This document shows positions 5,022-25,741 of a stretch of 26,711 nt of DNA, piece after piece (positions within the stretch are counted from its first letter, which is position 1; every line of letters starts with the position of its first letter). Below the pieces are notes generated by a model, which was not told the DNA's origin, made no database searches, and saw nothing but the letters and a program-made list of their open reading frames with translations. A program made the position numbers and the translations under genes. The DNA comes from a virus. The stretch covers positions 1 to 26,711 of IMG/VR virus record IMGVR_UViG_3300048672_000315. One strand, 5' to 3'.

Positions 5022-7016
5022 TTATTTTTTACGCATTACGAGTTGAGAAAACCACCTGTGCCGGCAATGTTCTTTAATATCACCGCTATCATTCCACCAT
5101 CCACCTCTACGGTCAAAAACAGAATAACCAACACGTGCTGAAATCTGTTCAATATCTGCCCGTGAATAAACTCTGTCTAAACTCATCAAAGCCCGGCAAA
5201 ACTCACGTGAAGGATGAGCTGATGTATTCCTTTCATTTGCAGGTATCTCCGGAAGCCACTCATATGAATACCTTATCAAAAATTCTGTTGTCTGTGGCTT
5301 AACAGCTTCGACAATCTTGCTAATCGGTTGGGTTAATTTCCTTTCCAGTACGATATTTTCTGTGTCACCTTTACCGATTGTTGTTTGGGTAACATTAATC
5401 AGACCTTTATTTACGGCTGCAGAAATAATATCGCTCACTCGTTTTACCGATATTTTCAAGTTATCAGCAATAACTTCCGGGGTAACCCTTTTATCCTTGC
5501 TTATCAAATCCAGCACATTAGCTTCAATTTGGCTTACATCAGCGAATAACTCATGTTCTGAATCATCTGTAAATCTTTGACGGCTTCTTATTACTGAGAA
5601 GTTACTTTTAGCTTCACCGAACTGTGAGAACACGGAAATTTCATCCTCTGCGCTCATCTGTATTGGTAATTCGTCAATGCCTAACATTGTTTCAATATCA
5701 TCATCGTTCAATCCCAAAGCGTTTTTTAGCATTACAGTAGCTGCTTCTTTTGTCAATTTCCCCTGTCCAACCTGGCGAATAATCCTTAACAGTTGCTGAT
5801 GCTGTTTCCCGGTAAGTGAACGCAATGCCTCATTAGTACCTTGCTGTTGCGGTGCTATTGTCTGCTGTGCTTCAGGGTATTTAGTCGGGTCTACCCCGGC
5901 TAATTCATAAATAAACTGCTTTGGAAGAATGTCTTTGATGTCCGTAAATGTAGGGTTAAGTCCCAAAGGATTTACCGGAATTATTTTTAAAACCTGTGTT
6001 TCACCGGCATAACTCGCAAGCATATTAAATACACCTTCCAAAAACATCTGTTTATCATTGGCGTAAGTATTCTTGAATATATCGTAAGCATCCTTTAATT
6101 CAGTAGTGCCGCCAAGTTTACCTGGTTGTGCAATTCCGAATAAAGACGGTGATGGAATTTCATGGCCCGCATAAATATTCTCCTGTATGATGTTTTTAAT
6201 AGGAGTGAAATCCTCCTTTGTCATGTCAGAAGCACCCAAGTCATCAATTATTGGCTTGCGGGCTGCATCCTGAACAAACGATAATATAAATTTCTTGCCA
6301 TCTGAACCGGTGAACCTTTTTTCAAACATCCGGGTTGTATCTCTTTTTTCCTCGTCTGTTGGTTCACCATTCGGCAAGGTAATCAACTTTGAAGGGGTAA
6401 AACCTGTTGAAGCATTTCCTAAAATGTGCTTGCTTACCTCAATGTCACTTTCGATGTAATTAAGTGCGGAAAAATACGATGGCAAAGGATATGCCCTACA
6501 TCCGGGACGGTATTCCTTAACGAATAAAATCTGTTTCTTTGTTCCGCTCGCAGGATCAAAAGCAGGTAAAACTTCTGCTTCACTTTTACGGTCTAAAATG
6601 TCCCAATTATCTTTATACCAAAACTGTGTATTGTCTTTATTGGTTCTGATTTTCAGGTAGTCAATATGGCTAATCTGTGTTACCTGTCTACCAATTTTAG
6701 ACCATATTACTTCCAAATAAGACCCGCCAAATGTTTCAATATCCAAAGAAACCTTTTTTGAAAGTACATTCAGCATGAACTTAGCAACAAACCCGGAATC
6801 TTCACCGCTCTCAGTAGTCCAACCGTTCCCGGTAATGTACTTTACTTTATTCCTAACAATAGCCCCATGCATTGCTGAGCTATTGTAAAGGCTAAGTAAG
6901 TAATCAGGGTAATCATTTCTTTCACCAAATTCAATATACCCTTTACCCCTTTTTTCCTTAAAATAAGGCTGCTTTGCCTCTGCAAATTTCAATATTACTA
7001 AGTTGCTTTCACTCAT
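5022..7016 (-). CDS. Portal protein fused to winged-helix and MuF-like C-terminal domains
   Basis: This is a 664-residue protein starting at ATG 7016. Residues 1 to about 385 look like a phage portal: RNDYPDYLLSLYNSSAMHGAI, NKVKYITGNGW, the wing/crown region, and GHEIPSPSLFGIAQPGKLGG, which precedes the pore helix. Residues about 400-447 hold LTGKQHQQLLRIIRQ...QGKLTKE, a helical segment I know from Bacteroidota phage portals. Residues about 492-545 form a winged helix-turn-helix (VSQIEANVLDLISK...ISVKRVSDII). Residues 578-664 carry FCRAL, YSRADIEQIS, DRRGGWW and EHCRHRWF, with Cys607, Cys651 and His653 placed much as in MuF-type minor capsid domains. The portal forms the dodecameric DNA gate at the head vertex. 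The extra domains exceed the usual 400-500 residues and may add minor-head functions. It overlaps the upstream gene by four bases. Confidence 0.8.
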   Translation of the reverse strand: MSESNLVILKFAEAKQPYFKEKRGKGYIEFGERNDYPDYLLSLYNSSAMHGAIVRNKVKYITGNGWTTESGEDSGFVAKFMLNVLSKKVSLDIETFGGSYLEVIWSKIGRQVTQISHIDYLKIRTNKDNTQFWYKDNWDILDRKSEAEVLPAFDPASGTKKQILFVKEYRPGCRAYPLPSYFSALNYIESDIEVSKHILGNASTGFTPSKLITLPNGEPTDEEKRDTTRMFEKRFTGSDGKKFILSFVQDAARKPIIDDLGASDMTKEDFTPIKNIIQENIYAGHEIPSPSLFGIAQPGKLGGTTELKDAYDIFKNTYANDKQMFLEGVFNMLASYAGETQVLKIIPVNPLGLNPTFTDIKDILPKQFIYELAGVDPTKYPEAQQTIAPQQQGTNEALRSLTGKQHQQLLRIIRQVGQGKLTKEAATVMLKNALGLNDDDIETMLGIDELPIQMSAEDEISVFSQFGEAKSNFSVIRSRQRFTDDSEHELFADVSQIEANVLDLISKDKRVTPEVIADNLKISVKRVSDIISAAVNKGLINVTQTTIGKGDTENIVLERKLTQPISKIVEAVKPQTTEFLIRYSYEWLPEIPANERNTSAHPSREFCRALMSLDRVYSRADIEQISARVGYSVFDRRGGWWNDSGDIKEHCRHRWFSQLVMRKK

Positions 7017-7384
7017 GGGATAATAAATTCAGTTGATACCGTTGGTTCTGTGAATATTGTAGTTGCCTCATTCAGTTGCATTAATCCTGTTTCCAGTAAG
7101 TTCAATCCAGAAGGATTTGTATTTGTTGTGCTTGTCTGTTCGTAAACATTGTACACCCACTGGCTATCCTTTGCATTTGGAAACAGCGTATTTACAACGA
7201 ATGAAAACTTATTATACCTGTCTTTAAATAAAGAAACATCATATGTATTTAGCTTCACGAATCGTACCTGAGTATTGGTTGTGCGACCTGTGAAAACAAA
7301 AAGGTAGTTAGGATCTGTTAACAGCTCCTTTTCCGTCAAAGTTAAATAAACGTATTGTGTTTGTCCTTTTGTCAGCACTACCAT
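7013..7384 (-). CDS. Phage structural protein of unknown function, portal-proximal
   Basis: I place the start at ATG 7384 (MVVLTKGQTQ), giving 123 residues; a longer reading to 7399 uses TTG and would overlap the promoter-like motif. The protein is beta-rich: VLTKGQTQYVYLTLTEKELL, YLFVFTGRTTN, and VRFVKLN at the start, then SQWVYNVYEQ. This pattern recurs in small Bacteroidota phage proteins near the portal and suggests a head-decoration or joining protein. It is the first gene after the terminator behind the tail-tube gene and the first of a new late transcript that continues into the portal, with which it overlaps (ATGA). The gene is firm, the role unknown. Confidence 0.6.
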   Translation of the reverse strand: MVVLTKGQTQYVYLTLTEKELLTDPNYLFVFTGRTTNTQVRFVKLNTYDVSLFKDRYNKFSFVVNTLFPNAKDSQWVYNVYEQTSTTNTNPSGLNLLETGLMQLNEATTIFTEPTVSTEFIIP

Positions 7385-7388
7385 GATA

Positions 7389-7420
7389 GTATATAGCAAT
7401 CATGCCTTTATTTGCCCAAA
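7389..7420 (-). promoter_or_regulatory. Promoter-like element for the portal-fibre-lysis operon
   Basis: TTTG (7420-7417), a 21-base spacer, then TATATAC (7395-7389), followed by four bases and the ATG at 7384. The same arrangement with identical spacings precedes the prohead protease and scaffold genes. The TTTG lies immediately after the U-tract of the terminator at 7427-7450, exactly where a new promoter is needed. Spacer and boxes resemble the Bacteroidota -33 TTTG / -7 TAnnTTTG pattern, with the last part of the -7 box changed to AC. Confidence 0.55.
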
Positions 7421-7450
7421 AACAAAAAGCCCGACCATATAGCCGGGCTT
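7418..7450 (-). terminator. Rho-independent terminator after the tail-tube gene
   Basis: On the minus strand the arms AAGCCCG (7450-7444) and CGGGCTT (7433-7427) form a 7-bp stem around a 10-base loop, followed by TTTGTTTTT. It lies about 20 bases downstream of the tail-tube-like stop codon and separates the capsid transcript from the portal transcript. Confidence 0.85.
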
Positions 7451-7469
7451 ATTATCAAAGATTATTTAT

Positions 7470-7991
7470 TTATGTTCCCGCAGTTAGCAGTGTAGCAACT
7501 GTTGCTGAATCAACAACTGGAGCAAGTGCCGGCTCTTTTGCAGTGTAAGTAAAAGTGTAACCGTTTCTATCACCCGCTGCCGTTCCACTACCTGAATTGC
7601 CACCGGTAGCATACAATGACCTTGTTTTACCGAGAAGCCAATAGTTACCGTTTGCATCTTTTACCACTGCAACCAATCTGTTCTTATTCAGCAAAAGCAG
7701 TTCATTTCTGAGGGCTACCTGCATTTTATTCAGAACTATGGTCAGCTCCTGTTGGTAAAATTCTGTGCCGTTTTCGATTGAACTGTTAAGGTTCTCAACG
7801 AAAAATGCCACTTCCTGTTCCTGTTCGTACTTTCTGAAAACAGACCCGGTTGCCTTTGTAATCGCTGTAACCGTTCCTGATGCCTCAGTTACAGAAGATA
7901 CATTCCCTTTTTCAATGAAGTAAATCTCAATAACTCCACCTACCGAATCCCGGCAATCAAGGGTATATCCTGTTGTTAATGCACATGCCAT
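7470..7991 (-). CDS. Abundant virion protein, probable major tail tube protein
   Basis: This 173-residue protein starts at ATG 7991 (MACALTTGYTLDCRDSVGG). The family signature includes CRDSVGGVIEIYFIE at the N-terminus, a central helix plus strands (ELTIVLNKMQVALRNELLLLNKNRLVAVVKD), NYWLLGKTRSLY, and GDRNGYTFTYTAKEPALAP near the C-terminus. I know this family from Bacteroidota tailed phages, always close to the major capsid gene. The beta-sandwich-like pattern and high-expression position fit a tail tube subunit. It is the last gene before a strong terminator, and an attenuator-like hairpin separates it from the capsid gene. A capsid decoration protein is the main alternative. Confidence 0.6.
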   Translation of the reverse strand: MACALTTGYTLDCRDSVGGVIEIYFIEKGNVSSVTEASGTVTAITKATGSVFRKYEQEQEVAFFVENLNSSIENGTEFYQQELTIVLNKMQVALRNELLLLNKNRLVAVVKDANGNYWLLGKTRSLYATGGNSGSGTAAGDRNGYTFTYTAKEPALAPVVDSATVATLLTAGT

Positions 7992-8007
7992 GATTTGATA
8001 TTTTAAA

Positions 8008-8031
8008 GCGGGCAGCTTTTACACTACCCGC
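8008..8031 (-). terminator. Attenuator-like hairpin between capsid and tail-tube genes
   Basis: On the minus strand GCGGGTAG (8031-8024) pairs with CTGCCCGC (8015-8008) in an 8-bp stem with one G-U pair and an 8-base loop. It is followed by TTTAAAATAT, a weak U-tract. It lies within six bases of the capsid stop. It could terminate part of the transcripts or protect the 3' end of capsid mRNA. Confidence 0.5.
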
Positions 8032-8036
8032 ATTGA

Positions 8037-8987
8037 TTAAGCTATGATGAATTTTACGATTTCGTCAGGGAATGCTACCTGAACACCGGCTTTGAAACCG
8101 ATATGCAAACGCACGTTACGGTTATCCTGGCTGTACCACATTTCAACATTATCATTCTCATCGAGAAGGTCAGTTCCGAAGAACATGTTTGAAACCCTCA
8201 TGGCAAAGAAATCATTTGCGCCGTCCAGTCCGTGAACAGCAGTAACTATGTACTGTGTGCCAGGGATTTTAAACTCACCATCAGATAACTGGCCCTGACC
8301 GTAGTTGAACAGGTTTGCGTTTACGTGTGCATCCACAATCAGATCGAATACATCCCATCCGCAGAAAATGCGAACATCGGCTTTACCTTTTACCTTTGCA
8401 GGCAATGCATTTTTAATGGCCTTTACAATGTAAACTGCATTGGTAACATCAACACTTGTTACAGTAGCTGACACATACGGCGTGCTGTTTGCATTGATAA
8501 CACCGGAAGCCGCCTGAATGATTTTTGAAAGACCATCAAACTTGTTCAGATTGATGTCGGTTGATGCTGTGTCACCCTGCCAAATAGCTGTTTCCAACTG
8601 CTCCGCAATGGTAGCTGTTTTCAAATCCATGTATTCCTTTGCGAATACCGCTTCGGTGTAAGTCCCACCGGCTGGAAGTGCCTTTTGCAAGTAATAGGCT
8701 TCCAGTGTCTTAGGGCACAGTGCTTCTTCAACTTTAATCTTACCAACTGTAAGAGTACGCTGAGTAAATGCAGTTGTACCTGAAGGCTCAAATGCACATC
8801 CGCTATCGTCCTGGAATGCGGCATCGGTTGTCATTTTGTTAACCGTTTCGGCTGATTTTACCTCAACCATAACGTTACCCATTGATTGAATCATCTTTTG
8901 GGTTTTAGCCTCAAAAAGTGAACGGGTAAAAATCAACCTTTCATCTTCTTTAACATAGGCTACTAACGTGCCTGCTGAATATGCCAT
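8037..8987 (-). CDS. Major capsid protein, HK97-like fold
   Basis: This is a 316-residue protein starting at ATG 8987. The order of elements fits a HK97-fold capsid subunit: an N-terminal arm, a long spine-helix region (EAVFAKEYMDLKTATIAEQLETAIWQGD in part), a middle A-domain with VYIVKAIKNALPAKVKGKADVRIFCGWDVFDLIVDA in substance, and the C-terminal NVRLHIGFKAGVQVAFPDEIVKF strand region. It follows the prohead protease and scaffold-like genes, as capsid genes typically do, and is followed by a structured intergenic hairpin. Capsid subunits assemble around the scaffold and portal before DNA packaging. No N-terminal propeptide is obvious within the gene, consistent with a separate scaffold being the protease substrate. 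Confidence 0.85.
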   Translation of the reverse strand: MAYSAGTLVAYVKEDERLIFTRSLFEAKTQKMIQSMGNVMVEVKSAETVNKMTTDAAFQDDSGCAFEPSGTTAFTQRTLTVGKIKVEEALCPKTLEAYYLQKALPAGGTYTEAVFAKEYMDLKTATIAEQLETAIWQGDTASTDINLNKFDGLSKIIQAASGVINANSTPYVSATVTSVDVTNAVYIVKAIKNALPAKVKGKADVRIFCGWDVFDLIVDAHVNANLFNYGQGQLSDGEFKIPGTQYIVTAVHGLDGANDFFAMRVSNMFFGTDLLDENDNVEMWYSQDNRNVRLHIGFKAGVQVAFPDEIVKFIIA

Positions 8988-8992
8988 TGTGT

Positions 8993-9550
8993 TTAGTTTT
9001 TATTTTTTGAAAAAGTTTCTTGAATTTCTTGTATGCGTCTTTCGCGCTCATTTTTTGGAAAACCGAAAGCGTTTTTCTGTGGTTCTGTTGGTTCTGTTGC
9101 CGGAAGTTCCAATGATTGCTCAACGAGTGAAACAAGGTCTTTGAAAGCCGCCTTTAATGCTTTCAGTTCGTCTTTTGCCAACTTCAATTCATCTTTCAAT
9201 GAATTTTCAGCAACGGAAAACTCTGTTTTTGTCATCATTTCAGGCATTGGCTCAGTTTCAACCTCTCCCCCCGGAGATACTTCGGTAATCAAACCAGTGG
9301 CATCTACTTCGATAGTAGAACCATCAGCAAGGATATATTCACCTTCTGCCGCCTGTGTTTGCGCTCCATTGGCATCAACAGTTGCCACCTTACCACCCGG
9401 CTCAAGTTTGTCAATCATGACCTTTGTGCCGTCTTTCAAAGAGTATTCTTTCATTTCAACAACAGGTGCAACCGCTGCTGCCGGTTCAACTGTGGGCTGA
9501 ACATCTTCAAATACTGCTTTGATTTTCTTTAAAAGTTCTGTTGCGTTCAT
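8993..9550 (-). CDS. Capsid scaffold-like protein
   Basis: The ATG at 9550 (MNATELLKKIKAVFEDV) is the likely start, giving 185 residues; the frame extends to 9601 only through a non-ATG codon and the upstream spacer. An N-terminal helix leads into a low-complexity Glu/Pro/Ala segment and short strand repeats (YSLKDGTKVMID, EYILADGSTIEVD). A helical coiled-coil stretch follows at about residues 118-155 (SLKDELKLAKDELKALKAAFKDL), then a charged C-terminus (ERERRIQEIQE). An acidic, coiled-coil protein between a prohead protease and the major capsid gene is the classic scaffold arrangement. It would guide capsid assembly and be degraded by the protease. A promoter-like element lies directly upstream. 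Confidence 0.7.
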   Translation of the reverse strand: MNATELLKKIKAVFEDVQPTVEPAAAVAPVVEMKEYSLKDGTKVMIDKLEPGGKVATVDANGAQTQAAEGEYILADGSTIEVDATGLITEVSPGGEVETEPMPEMMTKTEFSVAENSLKDELKLAKDELKALKAAFKDLVSLVEQSLELPATEPTEPQKNAFGFPKNERERRIQEIQETFSKNKN

Positions 9551-9554
9551 AACT

Positions 9555-9586
9555 GTATATAGTTTATTTTTTAGAATATGGACAAA
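9555..9586 (-). promoter_or_regulatory. Promoter-like element for scaffold and capsid genes
   Basis: TTTG (9586-9583), 21 bases, TATATAC (9561-9555), four bases, then ATG 9550. TTTG is part of CCTATTTG directly after the protease stop TAG. The same stop-plus-CCTATTTG arrangement occurs after the tape measure gene. Confidence 0.55.
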
Positions 9587-9590
9587 TAGG

Positions 9591-10178
9591 CTAAAGTTCA
9601 ATACTGTTAAGCATCGCCTGTATCTTTTCTACCATTTGCTCCGGTGTACTTTTTTTAGGTTTGTAAGTAAAAAGACCCTCAACGGAAAACCCTTTGAAAG
9701 TCCCGTCTTTAATCATCTGCCAAACACCATCATTATTAATCTTGAACGACCCAAACCATGACCCATCAGCTACATCTTCATACCCGTTCATTGGCATTTT
9801 TCCGAGTGACCTGTCTACTATCCAACTTTCAAACATGGTTGCCCCTTCGACAATCATTTCACCGTCATGCATCAGGTTCACATTTGACTGAAATCCCTTA
9901 ATAAAGAACTTTTGGGCTATTTTTTCAATCGTTGGAGCGTTAAACATGGCGTAATACTCACCGAACTCATCATCTTTACGGTAAATAGGCATATCTGCCA
10001 CCATCAAAGGGCCGGTAATAATCTGCTTTTCAGCGTTTACTGCAAATTTTTCCTTTACTTCATTGAACTTTTGCCAGTTCATTTGAATAGCCGGACGGTC
10101 AACAAGTGCCACATAGTTCACCTCTGTGCCGGCTGTTTCATCTTCGGAAATATCGAGTAAATAAATAGGTAAATCCAT
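9591..10178 (-). CDS. Prohead maturation protease, XkdF-like (Peptidase_S78_2)
   Basis: This is a 195-residue protein starting at ATG 10178. Its N-terminus MDLPIYLLDISEDE...NYVALVDRPAIQ matches the XkdF-like entry to the fold. His104 in NLMHDGEM and Ser165 in FKGFSVEGLF are placed as the His/Ser pair of S78-type prohead proteases, with GSWFGSFKI and the W..IKDGT helix between them. Such enzymes cut the scaffold and sometimes the capsid N-terminus during head maturation. It lies between the tape measure gene and the scaffold-like gene. The catalytic assignment rests on motif position, without a third residue located. Confidence 0.8.
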   Translation of the reverse strand: MDLPIYLLDISEDETAGTEVNYVALVDRPAIQMNWQKFNEVKEKFAVNAEKQIITGPLMVADMPIYRKDDEFGEYYAMFNAPTIEKIAQKFFIKGFQSNVNLMHDGEMIVEGATMFESWIVDRSLGKMPMNGYEDVADGSWFGSFKINNDGVWQMIKDGTFKGFSVEGLFTYKPKKSTPEQMVEKIQAMLNSIEL

Positions 10179-10182
10179 GCTT

Positions 10183-10214
10183 GTAAATATTATTTTGTTT
10201 CAAAAATGGTCAAA
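10183..10214 (-). promoter_or_regulatory. Promoter-like element for the prohead protease gene
   Basis: TTTG (10214-10211), 21 bases, TATTTAC (10189-10183), four bases, then ATG 10178. It starts in CCTATTTG immediately after the tape measure stop TAG. Spacing is identical to the elements at 7389 and 9555. Confidence 0.55.
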
Positions 10215-13961: not shown

Positions 13962-15196
13962 CTGTACTGGCTGTTATTGTATTTACCTACTTCGATACCG
14001 ATTTCAAGATTGAATAACTGGTCTGACTTTTCCAGTTTATACTCGTAATTCGTGTCATTGAAAGTAATCGGGAAAAATGCTCCATTCACTTCTAAATAAG
14101 CAATGGAAGAAGCTACCAACTGAGCTAACCAATGGTAATCATTCTCACTAACGTAGTCCGAAATCAGTCTGTAACTGTCTGTATGTTGGTTTGAGAAAGT
14201 TATCTTCCCTTCATTGTATCGGTTGAACTGATCGTTGTTTGTCATCTCGCTACCGCTCAATTGATATGATGCCCGTCTGAATGATTTACGGTCAAACCTT
14301 GTTGAACGCTTATTTACCAAATTGAACCCGAAAGTATCATACCCCCCTAACCGATTAAGGAAATGAACATTTACCGGGTTTGTCCGTGGGTAGCATACGT
14401 GCTTAATAGTTATCCAGTTTGAATTTATACTTCCAGGGAAGTTCAGACGAACTTTGTACCCGTAATTATCCTCTGTGATAAATTCACTGACTAAATATTC
14501 ATTAATAGCTGCTGCTGAAAAATTGAACATCGCAAAGCATTTGGTAGTAAATACTTCACCGGCCCCGGTGGAAGATGTACCGTTATTTGTTCCATCTTCA
14601 TTAATTTTCTGAATCTCAATGCTATCGTACCCACTTGAATAAACATCAAAAAGGAATGAAATAAACATCCGTTTCCCAAAGATCAATTCAACGTTATCCT
14701 TATCCCTTTCGGTCAGCCAATCATCTGCATAGTTTGATATTAACAAATTATCGTACTGACTTGACAATAACAAATCCCCTTCACCGCCACCCAATGACAA
14801 AATACCATCAAAGAACAAAGGCGGGTAGAAATTATACCCTGCATAAGCCCCATTGGTTAAATTGGAAGTTAATATTCCTGAAACTTCTTCCCCGTACTGA
14901 ATTTCATAATCAATTTTCAGTTTATTTGAAACATGGTTTAAAACCGTAGTACCTGATGGCTCAAAGTAATTCTCAAAGTAATTCCTTACTATTGGCGCAG
15001 AATTGAATATCCCATAACTATTTTCTGCAGAAGGGGAAGGCGTTGCTTTTACCCTGGCAACCAACCCGCCGGAAACAATAACATCAAACACGAATTTGAA
15101 GTTATCTTGCGTAACATTGTCAGAAGAAACTACAAACCACGCATCATCATGAAGCGAATGAAAGTCAGCCGGGGTTGAAAGTACTGTTATTGCCAT
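13958..15196 (-). CDS. Tail/baseplate structural protein
   Basis: This is a 412-residue protein starting at ATG 15196, which shares one base with the upstream stop. It is rich in aromatic residues, Asn and short strands. It contains a central segment LNRLGGYDTFGFNLVNKRS and a C-terminal part YRLISDYVSENDYHWLAQLVASS that recalls proteins encoded upstream of tape measures in Bacteroidota phages. It lies between the tail completion gene and the large baseplate gene in a tightly coupled run, so it is probably another tail-tip or baseplate subunit. I cannot name a family. Confidence 0.55.
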   Translation of the reverse strand: MAITVLSTPADFHSLHDDAWFVVSSDNVTQDNFKFVFDVIVSGGLVARVKATPSPSAENSYGIFNSAPIVRNYFENYFEPSGTTVLNHVSNKLKIDYEIQYGEEVSGILTSNLTNGAYAGYNFYPPLFFDGILSLGGGEGDLLLSSQYDNLLISNYADDWLTERDKDNVELIFGKRMFISFLFDVYSSGYDSIEIQKINEDGTNNGTSSTGAGEVFTTKCFAMFNFSAAAINEYLVSEFITEDNYGYKVRLNFPGSINSNWITIKHVCYPRTNPVNVHFLNRLGGYDTFGFNLVNKRSTRFDRKSFRRASYQLSGSEMTNNDQFNRYNEGKITFSNQHTDSYRLISDYVSENDYHWLAQLVASSIAYLEVNGAFFPITFNDTNYEYKLEKSDQLFNLEIGIEVGKYNNSQYR

Positions 15197-15858
15197 TAGT
15201 TTTCTCTTGTTGTTTGAATAATCTGTAAGGACACATCTGCTGCCAGTGCCTCACTTAATATACCTATAAAGTTTTTATCGAATGTCGTTTTAATGGCATC
15301 ATCGAAGAAATGAGTAGCCCTGATACCTTTTCTTTTAACCGAAGAAGCTATCATGTACGCCAACGACTTTGTAATGTCTTTTTTGCGAAGCCCTGATGAT
15401 TTTCGTTCATTTTTGGTTGGCCCATAACGGCTTACATCGGTAGCCATAATCTTTGCTTTCCCGAATTTTAACCATGATTTTATGGCCGAAACATGTTCCT
15501 GTGATGGGTATTTGCTTTTGAATGCATAAGGAGAATCGGTGGTTTTACCAACCCCGGCAACCCCTTTATTTATAAAATCGTAGTATTTTGAAGCCTTTGA
15601 GCCTTTCGGATAACCAATTGAGATGATATAAGACCCTGAAACCTGTGAAATTGCGAATGTAATGTCCGTGGAAGTCAACCCGGATGCAACTGAACCTGAT
15701 TTTTCAAGGTTGTCAATGGCAGTTTTCAGAAACGCTTTGGCATATTCCTGCAAAATACCTTCAACAACCGGAAGGTTATCAGTAGCTTTCTGCTCTCCCA
15801 GTTCGTTTAGGAATTTTGTCTTTAAAAAAGATACCTGGTTTTTGGTAATACTTGCCAT
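15196..15858 (-). CDS. Tail completion protein, HK97 gp10-like
   Basis: The ATG at 15858 (MASITKNQVSFLK) is preferred over an upstream non-ATG codon at 15873, giving 220 residues. Segments YYDFINKGVAGVGK, SAIKSWLKFGKAKI, SLAYMIASSVKRKGIRATHFFDDAI and the terminal helix resemble gp10-like neck or tail-completion proteins, whose C-terminal R-x-x-FF-x-x-A helix is characteristic. These connect the head adaptor to the tail. It follows the hidden frame that ends at 15886, and its leader contains TATTTAC four bases before the ATG, half of the promoter-like element found at three other virion genes. Confidence 0.65.
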   Translation of the reverse strand: MASITKNQVSFLKTKFLNELGEQKATDNLPVVEGILQEYAKAFLKTAIDNLEKSGSVASGLTSTDITFAISQVSGSYIISIGYPKGSKASKYYDFINKGVAGVGKTTDSPYAFKSKYPSQEHVSAIKSWLKFGKAKIMATDVSRYGPTKNERKSSGLRKKDITKSLAYMIASSVKRKGIRATHFFDDAIKTTFDKNFIGILSEALAADVSLQIIQTTREN

Positions 15859-15862
15859 GCTT

Positions 15863-15869
15863 GTAAATA
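15863..15869 (-). promoter_or_regulatory. TATTTAC start-proximal motif
   Basis: TATTTAC is followed by AAGC and the ATG at 15858, identical in sequence and spacing to the start of the prohead protease gene (10183-10189). Unlike the three complete elements, no TTTG is found 21 bases upstream (GGAG instead). This is either a degenerate promoter or evidence that the motif acts at translation. Confidence 0.35.
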
Positions 15870-15885
15870 GCAATGGCAGAAATGG

Positions 15886-16155
15886 TTATCCTCCCCGAAT
15901 GATTTCTTTGTCGAAATTAGCCTTCCCTTTAAGATATGACATTGTATTGACGGCTTCTATCGTTCTTAGTTCATAAGCTTCCGATACCGTAATATTGTGG
16001 AAGTCGGCAATAGATTTGGTGGTAAATTGCCATCCAAATACGTGCATAAATCGTTCACCGACTTTTCGGACTGCTCCCGGCTCATCCCCTTGCTCACCCC
16101 CTCTCGTATCAAATAATCCAGGGAAACCTCTATCCAGTTCCTGTATACTTGATAA
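15886..16155 (-). CDS. Hidden overlapping frame, probable -1 frameshift extension of the tail assembly chaperone
   Basis: A second frame overlaps the end of the preceding gene and continues 80 bases past its stop, ending with TAA at 15888-15886. It reads as ordinary protein: ...RKVGERFMHVFGWQF, TKSIADFHNITVSEAYEL, IEAVNTMSYLKGKANFDKE. The aromatic FGW motif followed by a helix and a YLK..AN.DKE helix resembles the distal part of tail assembly chaperones. The frame is open upstream only to a TGA at 16197-16195. A run of nine T (16162-16154 on the minus strand) provides a T TTT TTT site. A -1 slip there would join residues 1-161 of the upstream protein to 89 residues of this frame (250 in all). 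Alternatives are a separate 53-residue protein from ATG 16047, a later slip site, or a miscounted homopolymer. Confidence 0.65.
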   Translation of the reverse strand, partial: LSSIQELDRGFPGLFDTRGGEQGDEPGAVRKVGERFMHVFGWQFTTKSIADFHNITVSEAYELRTIEAVNTMSYLKGKANFDKEIIRGG

Positions 16156-18218: not shown

Positions 18219-18787
18219 ATTTTTTCAAGTTTAATCCCAAAATTAGCTGCATGACCAAAAACACCCTGGTTCTCATCATCAAAGGTCATATTCAGCTTAA
18301 TCAGGTCTTTTATGCTGATGTCATAATATTCTTTACTTACCCATTTTGAAAAGCCCATACCTCCATCTATACCGCAAGTTAGCAAATTTTTGATACCTAA
18401 CATACCCATCCACATTACCACAAAGGATGAACTATTGCTGCATCTGTATACCGGTTCCCCTATGAACAAGCTTTCAGTTTGCCCGGTTATCAGGAAATCA
18501 CAGTCATATTCCCAAAAGTATGTATTATCATTATTCCGGTTGGTATTGATAATCCTTGTGGCTACTTTCCCTTTTGGTTTTATCCATTCAAAAGCCTGTT
18601 TATCTGCAATGAAATGAATATCAACGCTTTCGCAAGCATAAGCAGCGTCATAAACGGCAGCTATATTATGGGTACCCTTGTACTTTTGATAGTCGAAATT
18701 ATCTAGTGACGGGCCGGTACCCAATAATATCCACGGCTTAGTAAAAAACCAATCCATTCGCGTCAGTTCGTTTAAATGCTTGAGCAT
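18215..18787 (-). CDS. MptE-like/DUF115 family protein
   Basis: This is a 190-residue protein starting at ATG 18787, overlapping the glycosyltransferase gene by 16 bases. The nucleotide-binding-like loop LLGTGPSLDNF (about residues 21-31), DIHFIADKQAFEWI, and a later GIKNLLTCGIDGGMGF match the 6-hydroxymethylpterin-pyrophosphokinase MptE-like / DUF115 fold, which also occurs in surface-glycan and flagellin-modifying proteins and in phages. A sialyltransferase-like fold that binds a nucleotide or nucleotide sugar is expected. Coupling to a glycosyltransferase suggests both act on the same glycan, phage protein or DNA base. Substrate unknown. Confidence 0.65.
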   Translation of the reverse strand: MLKHLNELTRMDWFFTKPWILLGTGPSLDNFDYQKYKGTHNIAAVYDAAYACESVDIHFIADKQAFEWIKPKGKVATRIINTNRNNDNTYFWEYDCDFLITGQTESLFIGEPVYRCSNSSSFVVMWMGMLGIKNLLTCGIDGGMGFSKWVSKEYYDISIKDLIKLNMTFDDENQGVFGHAANFGIKLEKI

Positions 18788-19788
18788 ATTACTTTGTACC
18801 TTTTTTCGTTTATAGTTTTCAAATTGTGGTGCTTATTGCAGAACTCAAACAACTCATTCCCTTTTTCTTCCCTCATTGCTTTGTCATTTACAAGCTCTTT
18901 TATCCATCTGTACCAATATTGCTGTGTCCTGGCATAACATAAAGGCATCCCCAAATAAGGATTTACCTCACTTACTACTGCTGGATTTCTTTTAGCTGCA
19001 GTTTCAAGAACTTTTAGGTTTGATTTTAGGCTATTGAACTTAGTATCAAGTAAAGGAATCAGGCTAATGTCCGAATCACAATAGGCAAACATGTAGTTTT
19101 CAGGCTTTGAAAAGCTGTAAATCTGACTATCGAATCTAAGCCCAGTAGTAAATGCGCTAATCATGACATCCCAAACCGGCTTAGACTTCTCTGCGTAGCC
19201 TGCCATTACTGTTTTAATCTTACCCCTTATGTCGCCATCTGAATAAACACGTTGCATAGGGTATTTAAGTATTGAAATATCCTGTGCATGTGTATCAGAT
19301 CCAGACCAAAATAGCCTTACCTTTTCGCTTTGTTCCTTTACGTCAATGAATTGTCCTTCCCCGTAAGGTATAGCATTTGGTAGGATAAATACTTGTTTGT
19401 TTAGTTGGTAAATCTCATCAGCCAGGCGCTCATGCGTAGTGGTGCAGACATCCGCAATATGAATGTAATCTTCAATTTTCTGACCGAAATTATGGTCTTT
19501 GTAAACCTGGTATAAAACGTGGTGCGGGTCTAAGTTCCAGTAATCGTCATTATCAATCACTAATTTAAATCCATATTTATCCCGGTATTTTGCCATTTGA
19601 TTGGCCGGAGTGGAAAAAGAACGGTTCATCATTACTATATCAAACCCTTTTTCAAAGGTTTCTTCTGTTACATGGTTAGTGATATAGGCATAATCTTCCG
19701 GGTGTGACTGGAGCATATAAAGAACCGGCATTATAAGCCTATGGTAAGAAACACCACTTGCAGGATTGGCTATTACTAAAATCCTCAT
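18772..19788 (-). CDS. GT-B glycosyltransferase, GT4-like
   Basis: This is a 338-residue protein starting at ATG 19788 (MRILVIANPASGVSYHRL). The N-terminal Rossmann half has an early glycine turn, then FDIVMMNRSF and KLVIDNDDYWNLD. The C-terminal half begins at about residue 158 (RLFWSGSDTHAQD) and contains DISLIPLLDTKFNSLKSN and LKVLETAAKRNPAVVSEV (about 259-275), the donor-binding KS-x-x-K-x-L-E helix of GT4-type enzymes. It transfers a sugar from a nucleotide donor. Being embedded just before the terminase genes, it may modify a virion protein, host glycan or phage DNA. The gene is coupled to both neighbours by short overlaps. Confidence 0.75.
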   Translation of the reverse strand: MRILVIANPASGVSYHRLIMPVLYMLQSHPEDYAYITNHVTEETFEKGFDIVMMNRSFSTPANQMAKYRDKYGFKLVIDNDDYWNLDPHHVLYQVYKDHNFGQKIEDYIHIADVCTTTHERLADEIYQLNKQVFILPNAIPYGEGQFIDVKEQSEKVRLFWSGSDTHAQDISILKYPMQRVYSDGDIRGKIKTVMAGYAEKSKPVWDVMISAFTTGLRFDSQIYSFSKPENYMFAYCDSDISLIPLLDTKFNSLKSNLKVLETAAKRNPAVVSEVNPYLGMPLCYARTQQYWYRWIKELVNDKAMREEKGNELFEFCNKHHNLKTINEKRYKVICSSI

Positions 19789-20096: not shown

Positions 20097-20317
20097 AAAT
20101 ATTTCTGAATTAATGGGGCCAAGCAACCTGGAATAAACATTGCACAAACAGCTTCTGAAACTTCAATAGGTAGAAAGTATAAAGCAAGTCCTACCCATGC
20201 AGCCAAACATACCGAACAATTGAACGGCCTGAAATTAAGCCTAAATTTCACATAAAGTTCAGCAAACTCAACCCAGTATAAGGTAAAAGCTATTGCCGCT
20301 GTGATTGTAAGTAACAT
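20093..20317 (-). CDS. Small integral membrane protein
   Basis: This is a 74-residue protein starting at ATG 20317, overlapping the sigma-like gene by 28 bases. There are two hydrophobic helices, about residues 2-18 and 36-64. A loop containing FRLNFRPFNCSVCLAAW lies between them, so CxxC sits at the start of helix 2. The next gene also has a CxxC, which may be chance. The helices could anchor a complex at the inner membrane or be an early lysis or exclusion protein. Function unknown. Confidence 0.55.
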   Translation of the reverse strand: MLLTITAAIAFTLYWVEFAELYVKFRLNFRPFNCSVCLAAWVGLALYFLPIEVSEAVCAMFIPGCLAPLIQKYL

Positions 20318-20805
20318 TTTATCTTATTTTTAGCTGAATCCAGTGTTCTCCTGACTGTTTTGTATGGTATTTTAGTTGACCGGCTCAGTTTCAATGCATT
20401 TGAATTGAACGTGAAAGCATATAAAAGGAACATATCCCGTTCATACAGCTCATCTCTTTTGTTGCTGAAAATTTGATCAAATTCTAACTTCCCAATCTTG
20501 CACTCATTTACCTCAATGGCCTCTGTCATGAGTCCTACATTTTCCGGTAATTCAATCAAGTTCCTGAAATTTCTGAAAAAAGTAGAACGATTTGATTTAA
20601 TCATGTTCAGCATTGTCCGAACTAAAAAGAACTTTAAATACCCTTTACTGTGCATCTCAATCAGTCTTTCATCAGGCATTTCAAGAAGTACCATGAACAT
20701 TTCCTGCCTTAAATCTTCCTGGAGGTCAAAAGGCTCCATCTTTTTTATAGCAGACTGAATATCCTCGCAACAGTATAATTCGTGTATTATCTCATTTTTG
20801 CACAC
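20290..20805 (-). CDS. RNA polymerase sigma-factor-like protein
   Basis: This is a 171-residue protein. The best start is GTG at 20805, since the upstream in-frame codon before TAT is a stop; the next ATG is residue 23. Residues about 26-75 resemble sigma region 2: FDLQEDLRQEMFMVLLEM, a linker, then KFFLVRTMLNMIKSNRSTFF. Residues about 118-165 resemble region 4: RDELYERDMFLLYAF, then a helix-turn-helix NALKLSRSTKIPYKTVRRTLDSAKNKI. The spacing is that of small group 4/ECF-type factors. A phage-coded sigma factor ahead of the terminase and virion genes would direct the host polymerase to late promoters. Sequence similarity is weak, so a non-sigma DNA-binding protein remains possible. Confidence 0.55.
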   Translation of the reverse strand: MCKNEIIHELYCCEDIQSAIKKMEPFDLQEDLRQEMFMVLLEMPDERLIEMHSKGYLKFFLVRTMLNMIKSNRSTFFRNFRNLIELPENVGLMTEAIEVNECKIGKLEFDQIFSNKRDELYERDMFLLYAFTFNSNALKLSRSTKIPYKTVRRTLDSAKNKIKCYLQSQRQ

Positions 20806-23181: not shown

Positions 23182-24399
23182 TTAAAAGTCAGTAATTTGG
23201 GATGCTTTATTCCTTTTTTCTTTTATTGCCTTGTAAACTTCATAAGCCTCTGACTTTGGCTGAGTTTGCCCTAACCCTTTGCAATAAAAATCATTCCTCA
23301 AAATACATCGTGCCATTCGTTTCCATGATGGAGCCCAACATTTAACTTCCAAATCATGCGGAGCCTGGTCAGGTATTTTTTCATACCCCCTTTTCTTCCA
23401 CCCTACAATAAATTTCTGAAACCTTTCTCTGTAATGAGTTTGCATTTTACCTGGGAGAGATTTTAACAGGTAATTTACATATTGTTCCCAATTATACCCT
23501 TTTGGTTTTGTGACATCATTGTAGCCATTAATATTCCCATGTTCTTGAATGTAAAGAGATCCACTATTTACACCGGATACCCTGTTTAGCAATTTATACC
23601 AAGTATCAGGCTCTAAAATATGGTACAACCAAAGGCCTTTTTTTTGATCATCACCGTAAGGCTGGCAAAGCCTTTGGTTGCTTAATTTTACCCCAGCCAT
23701 AGTCATAAGATCATAAACCTTATTATGTGGCAAATGCTTATTTTTTGCGTGGAATACCCAAATATCTTCCGTTCTCCAATCGTAAATAGGGTAAATATTA
23801 TAAAGACAATTTGAAAGTTTTGTAGTCCATTTATAACCGTTAAATGTCAGGTTTTTCTTTGTTGAAGTAATTGCTTTATACCTGTGTAAACTTTCATCTG
23901 CTCTGATACCTATAAAACCTGCAGTTAAACTATCTCCGGCATACCATTTGCCAAAAATCACCATAAATTCTTCAAACTCCATCTTCGGTATGTAGAAATC
24001 ATAGTCAAAAGGATTGCAGAACTCTTCCGGTTTTTCTCTTACCCAAATGTCTTTATTTTCTTCATCCCAACAAACCCATTTAGGCTGGAAGTCACTAACT
24101 GCATTTCTTAGTAATAACTCTCCGCAAAACCAATGAAGATCAATATTGTCTTTGTACATGTTTACCATTGTTCTCAAATGGTCTATTGTGTTAGAATATT
24201 GAGCTTCAAGGTCAATGATTAAAACACCTACTTTTTTGTTTCTCAAAATAGCTTCTTCCATAACAAGGTGCATCATTACGGTACTATCTTTACCACCGGA
24301 AAAGCTTATATAATACTTTTCAAAAGAATCAAAAACTTTAGATATTCTTTCTTTTGCAGCCTGTAAAACGTTTTTCTGAATATATGATTTTGTAGCCAT
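23182..24399 (-). CDS. IbrA-like PAPS reductase/ATP pyrophosphatase family protein
   Basis: This is a 405-residue protein starting at ATG 24399. The PP-loop SGGKDST (residues 34-40) binds ATP pyrophosphate in this superfamily. IIDLEAQYSNTIDH (about 61-74), GFIGIRADESLHRY (161-174) and IYPIYDWRTEDIW (202-214) follow the IbrA pattern, and the C-terminal half with LSNQRLCQPYGDDQKKGLWLYH and GYNWEQYVNYLLKSLPGKM matches the DUF3440 region. Family members adenylate or activate substrates for sulfur or nucleotide chemistry; IbrA itself is known as a regulator encoded with IbrB on mobile elements. The IbrB-like gene is directly upstream. Distinguish from DndC, which shares the PP-loop but lacks this C-terminal part. 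The real substrate is unknown. Confidence 0.85.
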   Translation of the reverse strand: MATKSYIQKNVLQAAKERISKVFDSFEKYYISFSGGKDSTVMMHLVMEEAILRNKKVGVLIIDLEAQYSNTIDHLRTMVNMYKDNIDLHWFCGELLLRNAVSDFQPKWVCWDEENKDIWVREKPEEFCNPFDYDFYIPKMEFEEFMVIFGKWYAGDSLTAGFIGIRADESLHRYKAITSTKKNLTFNGYKWTTKLSNCLYNIYPIYDWRTEDIWVFHAKNKHLPHNKVYDLMTMAGVKLSNQRLCQPYGDDQKKGLWLYHILEPDTWYKLLNRVSGVNSGSLYIQEHGNINGYNDVTKPKGYNWEQYVNYLLKSLPGKMQTHYRERFQKFIVGWKKRGYEKIPDQAPHDLEVKCWAPSWKRMARCILRNDFYCKGLGQTQPKSEAYEVYKAIKEKRNKASQITDF

Positions 24400-24401
24400 G
24401 A

Positions 24402-25541
24402 TTAATAAAGTTCAGTTTGTCTACCAATACTCAATGCTTCCTGCATTGAAATTTCTTTTCTGTCATTGGCAATAAGCCATTTATTTAATGCTTCCAAAGC
24501 TATCCCATTGGCAGTTTCTTGCTCTTGTTCAGTCAATAAATTAAAACCTGAACAAAACCTGGAAGGGATGCCTAATTCATAACAAACAGATGCCTGACCT
24601 AACCATGCTATTCTATTCATTGACTTATTAGTCAAATAATGCTCACATGAATGCTTCCACTCTGTTATAACTTTGTCTAATGACTTTCTGAATAAATCTG
24701 AATCTTTAAGAAATTCAGCGTATGCCATTTCACACTGTTCAGAACTCATGCCGTCTTTCTTTGTAGAATAAAACCCGGCTTTGTGACATTCCCATTTTTC
24801 AAAAGTGTGAAAAATTCTGTCTTTATCCTGTTCGTTTGGTATTTTATACTCAGCCATTAAATCTTCTGTGATTTCGTCCGTCAATACCTGGTATTCATTT
24901 TCTACATAATCAGAAGATTCCCATGCTTGAGAAAAATCATTGTCTGAAAACAAATGTTCCAACCCTGATATTTGACAAAGCCTTAACACTTCTTCTTCGT
25001 CCATGCCAAGCTGTTTAGATATTCTCTGATTGCTCCAGTTTCGATTTTTTAACTCAATAACAATTTCACTCATAGCATTTACCTGATGTTTACCTCTGGC
25101 CCTGTTATGTCTGATAGTAGATGCAATACGGTCATTTGACCCTGATTGTTCTTTTCTAATATCAACCACTGGAAGATACCCTAATATCCTTTGTCTTACA
25201 ACTTTTGATTCCTTACCTACCCGGTTACGGTGGAATCCGTCAATAACTTCTGTTTTTTGTTTTTCAGGGTTGTTCCATGTTACTATTGGCTGAGTATACC
25301 CATCGTTTAAAATAGATATTTCCAAAAGTTCCATTTCAGGCGGGGCAACCTTATTAGGGTTGTAATCATTTGCGACAACATCATCAGAAATTACCCATTT
25401 AACAAAGTCTACTGGCTCGTTTTTGAATGGGCTTAGTTCGTGAATATGCTGCCTGATTTCGTTAATTAAATTGACCGTTTCTGACAATGACTTGTCCTTA
25501 AGAATATCGGTGATATACTCTTTCAAAAGTTCTGTTTGCAT
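24402..25541 (-). CDS. IbrB-like ParB/sulfiredoxin-fold protein
   Basis: The ATG at 25541 (MQTELLKEYITDIL) starts a 379-residue protein; a longer reading to 25607 would overlap the upstream gene with a non-ATG codon. After a helical N-terminus, residues about 48-107 form a ParB/Srx-like core: VISDDVVANDYNPNKVAPPEMELLEIS, DGYTQPIV and the DGFHRNR motif (101-107), which replaces the GERR of true ParB. RHNRARGKH lies at 144-151. A helix-turn-helix (WSNQRISKQLGMDEEEVLRL, 169-188) follows, then a long helical part. IbrB and related Srx-like proteins bind nucleotides or DNA and pair with IbrA. It is two bases upstream of the IbrA-like gene, so both form one unit. Confidence 0.85.
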   Translation of the reverse strand: MQTELLKEYITDILKDKSLSETVNLINEIRQHIHELSPFKNEPVDFVKWVISDDVVANDYNPNKVAPPEMELLEISILNDGYTQPIVTWNNPEKQKTEVIDGFHRNRVGKESKVVRQRILGYLPVVDIRKEQSGSNDRIASTIRHNRARGKHQVNAMSEIVIELKNRNWSNQRISKQLGMDEEEVLRLCQISGLEHLFSDNDFSQAWESSDYVENEYQVLTDEITEDLMAEYKIPNEQDKDRIFHTFEKWECHKAGFYSTKKDGMSSEQCEMAYAEFLKDSDLFRKSLDKVITEWKHSCEHYLTNKSMNRIAWLGQASVCYELGIPSRFCSGFNLLTEQEQETANGIALEALNKWLIANDRKEISMQEALSIGRQTELY

Positions 25542-25546
25542 GATAA

Positions 25547-25741
25547 TTATATTTCTTTTTTGATTAATTGTTGAGCAAGTCTGATTTGGGCCGGTACCAT
25601 AGTCCATTTTTTATTTGCTTCTGAGAAAGCGTCTATGTCACCGTTTTTTATTGCTTCACACATTTTCTTATACTCAATATTAGGTATCAATGGCTTTTCT
25701 TCTGATCCAATAAATTTGTGATTGTAAAGCGTTGTTTTCAT
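25547..25741 (-). CDS. Small protein of unknown function upstream of IbrB-like gene
   Basis: This is a 64-residue protein starting at ATG 25741 after an A-rich stretch. The sequence is charged and mostly helical: YKKMCEAIKNGDIDAFSEANKKW resembles a small helical-repeat unit, with QIRLAQQLIKKEI at the end. It is five bases before the IbrB-like ATG, so it is probably the first gene of this three-gene set. A structured leader (25756-25795) precedes it. No family recognised; it could be a partner of the IbrA/IbrB pair. Confidence 0.5.
   Translation of the reverse strand: MKTTLYNHKFIGSEEKPLIPNIEYKKMCEAIKNGDIDAFSEANKKWTMVPAQIRLAQQLIKKEI

Follow-up and report, generated by a model that had tools for sequence, protein, structure and literature searches.

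At four places along its minus strand, the phage genome analysed here carries a repeated sequence element directly before a virion gene. Judged from its sequence and its conservation, the element is very probably a phage-specific two-box late promoter that gives near-leaderless virion mRNAs and is most likely read via the phage's own sigma-like protein. The window covers an entire IMG/VR record (26,711 bases), in which the virion genes lie on the minus strand.

The repeated element in the window

The pattern TTTG-N21-TATWTAC-N4-ATG has exactly three matches in the window, all on the minus strand and each at the start of a virion gene. The first-pass annotation had reported three sites of identical spacing, each four bases before an ATG, and their coordinates proved exact. 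Element P4 (7382-7420) is formed by TTTG at 7417-7420, N21, TATATAC at 7389-7395, N4 and the ATG at 7382-7384 of ORF 7013-7384, the gene just before the portal gene. Element P3 (9548-9586) combines TTTG at 9583-9586, N21, TATATAC at 9555-9561, N4 and the ATG at 9548-9550 of ORF 8993-9550. Element P2 (10176-10214) combines TTTG at 10211-10214, N21, TATTTAC at 10183-10189, N4 and the ATG at 10176-10178 of ORF 9591-10178, which was identified with PHROGs as the head maturation protease. ORF 8993-9550 lies between the protease and the major capsid protein (MCP) gene and is named here, by location, the scaffold-position gene. The MCP gene (8037-8987, minus strand) follows it in the P3 unit and has no element at its own start. 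Two further details of the annotation were recovered: both copies of a shared TAGCCTATTTG-N-CCAT are present, and a terminator-like intrinsic hairpin, recognised from the sequence and similar in relatives, occupies positions 7427-7450 of the minus strand and ends directly before the TTTG of P4, thus preceding the 7389-7420 site.

A fourth site, P1 (15856-15869, minus strand), matches TATWTAC-N4-ATG, with TATTTAC at 15863-15869 and the ATG of ORF 15196-15858 at 15856-15858. It had been described as possessing the second half only. The second box is indeed present; the restriction to that half does not hold in full, as GGATAACC at 15884-15891 on the same strand, 20 nt before the box, may be an upstream half, though one without TG.

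No match to the complete pattern occurred in 100 dinucleotide shuffles of the window. TATWTAC-N4-ATG was observed 4 times against 0.12 expected, a count reached by no shuffle, and the four ATGs concerned are the starts of long minus-strand ORFs (123, 185, 195 and 220 aa). The motif was however picked post hoc, after inspection of the window, and when exact k-mers at a single offset from the window's 31 starts were searched without bias, none exceeded the null. The window alone would therefore not prove a function; the comparative data do.

Conservation at orthologous gene starts

Searches with the portal and MCP proteins yielded about 165 related loci, mostly metagenomic viral contigs, across which the virion gene order is kept; a protease query against viral contigs found no relatives. 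Two of these loci (L169 and L170) are contigs binned in a single Chitinophagaceae metagenome-assembled genome (UBA8137), a binning in one MAG that hints at the host family.

Absence of the element at orthologous starts in related phages had been named as an observation that would speak against it, and the element was found there. In the relatives the exact TATWTAC of the window broadens to YATWTA, and at these four genes its distance to the start codon is mostly 4-8 nt. Counted on unique upstream regions, YATWTA is found no more than 16 nt from the start in 78/78 orthologues of ORF 7013-7384, 45/51 of the protease gene, 34/37 of ORF 15196-15858 and 46/57 of the scaffold-position gene. The commonest distance from box to start is 5 nt. 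This distance applies to 37 of the 45 unique protease starts with a box and to 30 of the 34 for ORF 15196-15858, and for ORF 7013-7384 all 78 unique starts have the box at 4-8 nt. As a background, YATWTA stands 5 nt before 0.52% of all 35,811 ATGs in the related loci, the true sites being counted in. Five control genes exhibited it at 1 of 243 starts (MCP 0/47, g13961 0/45, g15196 0/40, g11958 0/44 and g5018 1/67). It was also encountered at g7991 (11/94) and at the portal gene (13/57), at both without a partner TG at the right spacing. Relatives whose protease shares 45-72% identity keep the element, whereas the bases around it have diverged.

Taken alone, the YATWTA box lacks specificity. 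When YATWTANNNNNATG was counted throughout 25 related records, it showed no excess over a reversed control. With a weight matrix combining the two boxes, the three sites of the window were the top minus-strand matches; since shuffled sequence sometimes scores as high, the matrix was not used for calling, and the sites need synteny to be recognised.

The TTTG of the window turned out to be only part of a larger upstream box that varies between clades, being TATTTGACCA here and TAAGTGATAA in most relatives, where the core is reduced to TG. The -7-like box is constant across clades and the upstream box clade-specific. At the scaffold-position gene, TG is found exactly 21 nt before YATWTA in 43/46 unique and 21/24 non-redundant sites, the best of 1000 shuffles reaching 8. 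The distance from box to ATG at this gene is 4, 5, 8 or 10-15 nt in different clades, and the 21-nt spacing to TG is still observed in 11 of the 14 non-redundant sites in which the box lies 8-15 nt from the ATG. For ORF 7013-7384, TG stands 20 nt before the box in 51/78 unique sites (22/36 in the shuffle-tested set), and for the protease gene 20 or 21 nt before it in 13/19 sites. At these three genes the fixed spacing exceeds 1000 shuffles. At ORF 15196-15858 no TG spacing rises above shuffles and a clear upstream TG is missing, which makes the upstream half of P1 weak; 81% of 16 non-redundant orthologues nevertheless keep a G at -21, and the TGATAAA seen at other sites in relatives sits where P1 has GGATAACC. 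Where the upstream gene ends relative to the box usually differs: at the protease gene its TAA stop precedes TG by 4 nt, whereas at the next gene a TGA stop coincides with TG. The box is therefore not conserved for the sake of the coding sequence.

Two of the four genes usually have a terminator-like hairpin ahead of the element; it was detected upstream of ORF 7013-7384 in 59/92 and of ORF 15196-15858 in 29/39 unique relatives. Conservation at the starts, fixed spacing and hairpins together form the anatomy of promoters heading transcription units. Among the other genes such a hairpin is frequent only at g7991, a gene without the element: it lies after the MCP gene and before ORF 7470-7991 (region 7470-8036) in 63/86 relatives. 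Attenuation or RNA stabilisation are possible roles for this hairpin behind the capsid gene.

A sigma-like protein and the parallel of phage P12024S

The candidate reader of the elements is a 171-aa protein with a GTG start, encoded on the minus strand at 20290-20805, just behind the NinG gene and shortly ahead of the terminase genes. A homologue was detected in 31 of 44 related records, including 24/24 of those of at least 30 kb; no close homologue was found in the isolated phages of the GenBank set. The protein gave no significant match in Pfam, PHROGs or PDB sequence searches, curated HMMs did not recognise Sigma-70 regions 2 and 4 in it, and one of its homologues showed a weak Sigma70_r2 match (E 0.07). 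An AlphaFold model (pLDDT 79), for which 19 diverse sequences were used, was compared with the PDB using Foldseek. ECF sigma factors ranked top, with SigL at a probability of 0.97 and an E-value of 0.028 (all E-values being above 0.001), and region-4 domains fitted the model at 1.8 A over 42-49 alignment columns with a TM-score of about 0.6. Given E-values never below 0.001 and no significant HMM match, "sigma-like" is the honest term. The putative recognition helix differs with the class of upstream box, reading YKT with TATTTGACC, YMS or YIS with TAAGTGATAA-type boxes and KQV with TAAATGTCC. This joint change of helix and box by clade is suggestive and is confounded by phylogeny. The proposal that the protein reads the element gains support from its presence in all the records of at least 30 kb and from the ECF-like predicted fold, and we infer this recognition from them.

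The Nonlabens phage P12024S (JQ823122; L361), an isolated phage with distant portal homology to the window phage (25% identity), offers a parallel. CGTTAMTW-N4-ATG occurs at six of its annotated starts (179, 3031, 5412, 23961, 25201 and 26802) against 0.17 expected, and ACAAA precedes GTTA by 14-15 nt at 5 of the 6 sites, plus one further start (21280). A de novo k-mer test recovered CGTTAATA at one offset in 5/59 starts, the null maximum being 3. The gene for P12024S_33 lies a few genes ahead of the terminase; the protein carries a sigma-70 region 2 annotation and passes the Pfam cut-off for it. The two phages are alike in having the box 4 nt before the ATG and a sigma or sigma-like protein encoded shortly ahead of the terminase; they differ in their boxes, AAAACAAA and CGTTAATA in P12024S instead of TATTTGACCA and YATWTA. 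That the geometry recurs with other boxes, and with a sigma protein at the corresponding locus, lends support to the general model. The AAAACAAA-N-CGTTAATA-N4-ATG repeats of P12024S also resemble ECF promoters (AAC...CGT).

Promoter reading, rival explanations and known systems

In the proposed mechanism, the promoter would comprise a -33-like upstream box, TATTTGNCCA in this phage, and the -7-like YATWTA about 20-21 nt apart. Such promoters would head the virion units formed by ORF 15196-15858 onward, by the protease gene, by the scaffold-position and MCP genes, and by ORF 7013-7384 with the portal gene onward. Host core RNA polymerase, most likely with the sigma-like protein, would recognise them. 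RNA usually begins about 6 nt beyond a -10/-7 hexamer. With a start about 6 nt after the -7-like box, the 5' ends are predicted at the start codon or within 1-2 nt of it, giving leaderless or nearly leaderless mRNAs. An RNA start at the element, late timing and leaderlessness are predictions of this model. The annotation had proposed a promoter with a variant second box, an mRNA start near the ATG and, as an alternative, a role in translation. The promoter reading is supported by the conserved orthologous starts and by a spacing of the box pair that is independent of the ATG; the variant second box and the nearly leaderless arrangement gain support as well.

In the translational alternative, YAUWUA-N5-AUG would guide ribosomes to the start codon in hosts that manage without Shine-Dalgarno sequences. 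Translation initiation in Bacteroidota depends on upstream bases, for instance A at -3 and -6 (PMC6847099), and the 5-nt distance prevails at the protease gene and ORF 15196-15858 and is the commonest at the other two, both of which would suit such a signal. However, in many relatives the box of the scaffold-position gene is 8-15 nt away from the ATG and still 21 nt from TG, the internal genes of the virion units, capsid gene included, are without a box, and two of the four sites are behind terminators. Because the two boxes slide together relative to the ATG, they point to a promoter and not to a translation signal, and we regard the latter as very improbable. A functionless origin, by chance or through common ancestry of the neighbouring sequence, could draw on the AT-rich genome, on the choice of the motif afterwards and on the non-significant exact k-mers of the window. 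It is refuted by the comparative data and deserves practically no credit: the element is kept at orthologous starts of diverged proteases while the flanks change, and its spacing is fixed beyond 1000 shuffles at three genes.

A more serious rival, still unlikely in our view, is that these are late promoters read by the host primary sigma factor (sigma-ABfr), perhaps with a phage activator on the upstream box, the sigma-like ORF having another role. The consensus promoter of Bacteroidota hosts has TTTG at -33 and TAnnTTTG at -7 with a spacing of about 20 nt (PMC7366714; PMC9723704). The phage element shares the TTTG-like upstream core and the spacing of about 20 nt, with TTTG near -33 at the three window sites, and its upstream box, which varies between clades, could serve to bind an activator. 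On the other side, every clade has YATWTA as its -7 box, which lacks the TTTG half of TAnnTTTG, the three sites having TATATACT, TATATACA and TATTTACA in place of TAnnTTTG at -7, so that the host primary sigma would need a deviant site. The upstream box of the phage is also longer than TTTG and varies by clade. Leaders in the hosts are longer, usually above 20 nt (medians 24-32 nt), with very short leaders making up 4-6% (PMC9723704; PMC7366714). Moreover, the sigma-like protein is universally conserved where a late regulator is usually encoded, and P12024S has a Pfam-supported sigma together with a different, ECF-like motif. TAnnTTTG, sought as a host-type promoter for early genes, showed no enrichment: the window has 28 copies where 33.4 are expected.

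The element recurs as two boxes at constant spacing before a group of phage genes, as do promoters served by phage sigma factors. In phages phiEco32 and 7-11, a phage-encoded sigma redirects host RNA polymerase to phage promoters (TAATGTATA) serving structural genes (PMC4331800). Phage-specific promoters for structural genes, probable ones here, are common to both systems, with a sigma reader that is putative here, whereas the host phylum, the boxes and the genome layout are different, and a fixed position relative to the start codon is not noted in the parts of that source consulted. TA-led leaderless bacterial genes, which are host genes transcribed with the main sigma, have a -10-like TANNNT some 10-12 nt upstream of the start codon (PMC3160421); the position of the phage box relative to the start codon fits, but YATWTA ends in A and TANNNT in T, which places the element outside that class.

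Extending the promoter reading, we lean slightly towards a picture in which aquatic Bacteroidota phages, a large and unstudied group, would possess a family of their own of small, very divergent ECF-like sigmas for late genes, start-codon promoters and leaderless virion mRNAs, with sigma and upstream box changing clade by clade and P12024S as a more distant version. If true, leaderless phage mRNAs would be made in a phylum whose hosts rarely make them, and the phages would rely on such messages in hosts without Shine-Dalgarno use. In the literature searched we found no description of a late promoter or late regulator of these abundant phages, and no earlier report of the present promoters, those of P12024S included. 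Candidates for both promoter and regulator are thus supplied together, along with a rule for finding late units in metagenomic genomes, an isolated phage, P12024S, for testing, and a natural series of sigma-promoter pairs for the study of specificity drift.

Elsewhere in the window, a glycosyltransferase-like gene (18772-19788; PHROG 7162, E 1e-60), with matches in 20 related loci, lies between the early region and the terminase. At 23182-25607 a PAPS-reductase/DUF3440 protein adjoins a ParB-like protein, a pairing often seen in phages.
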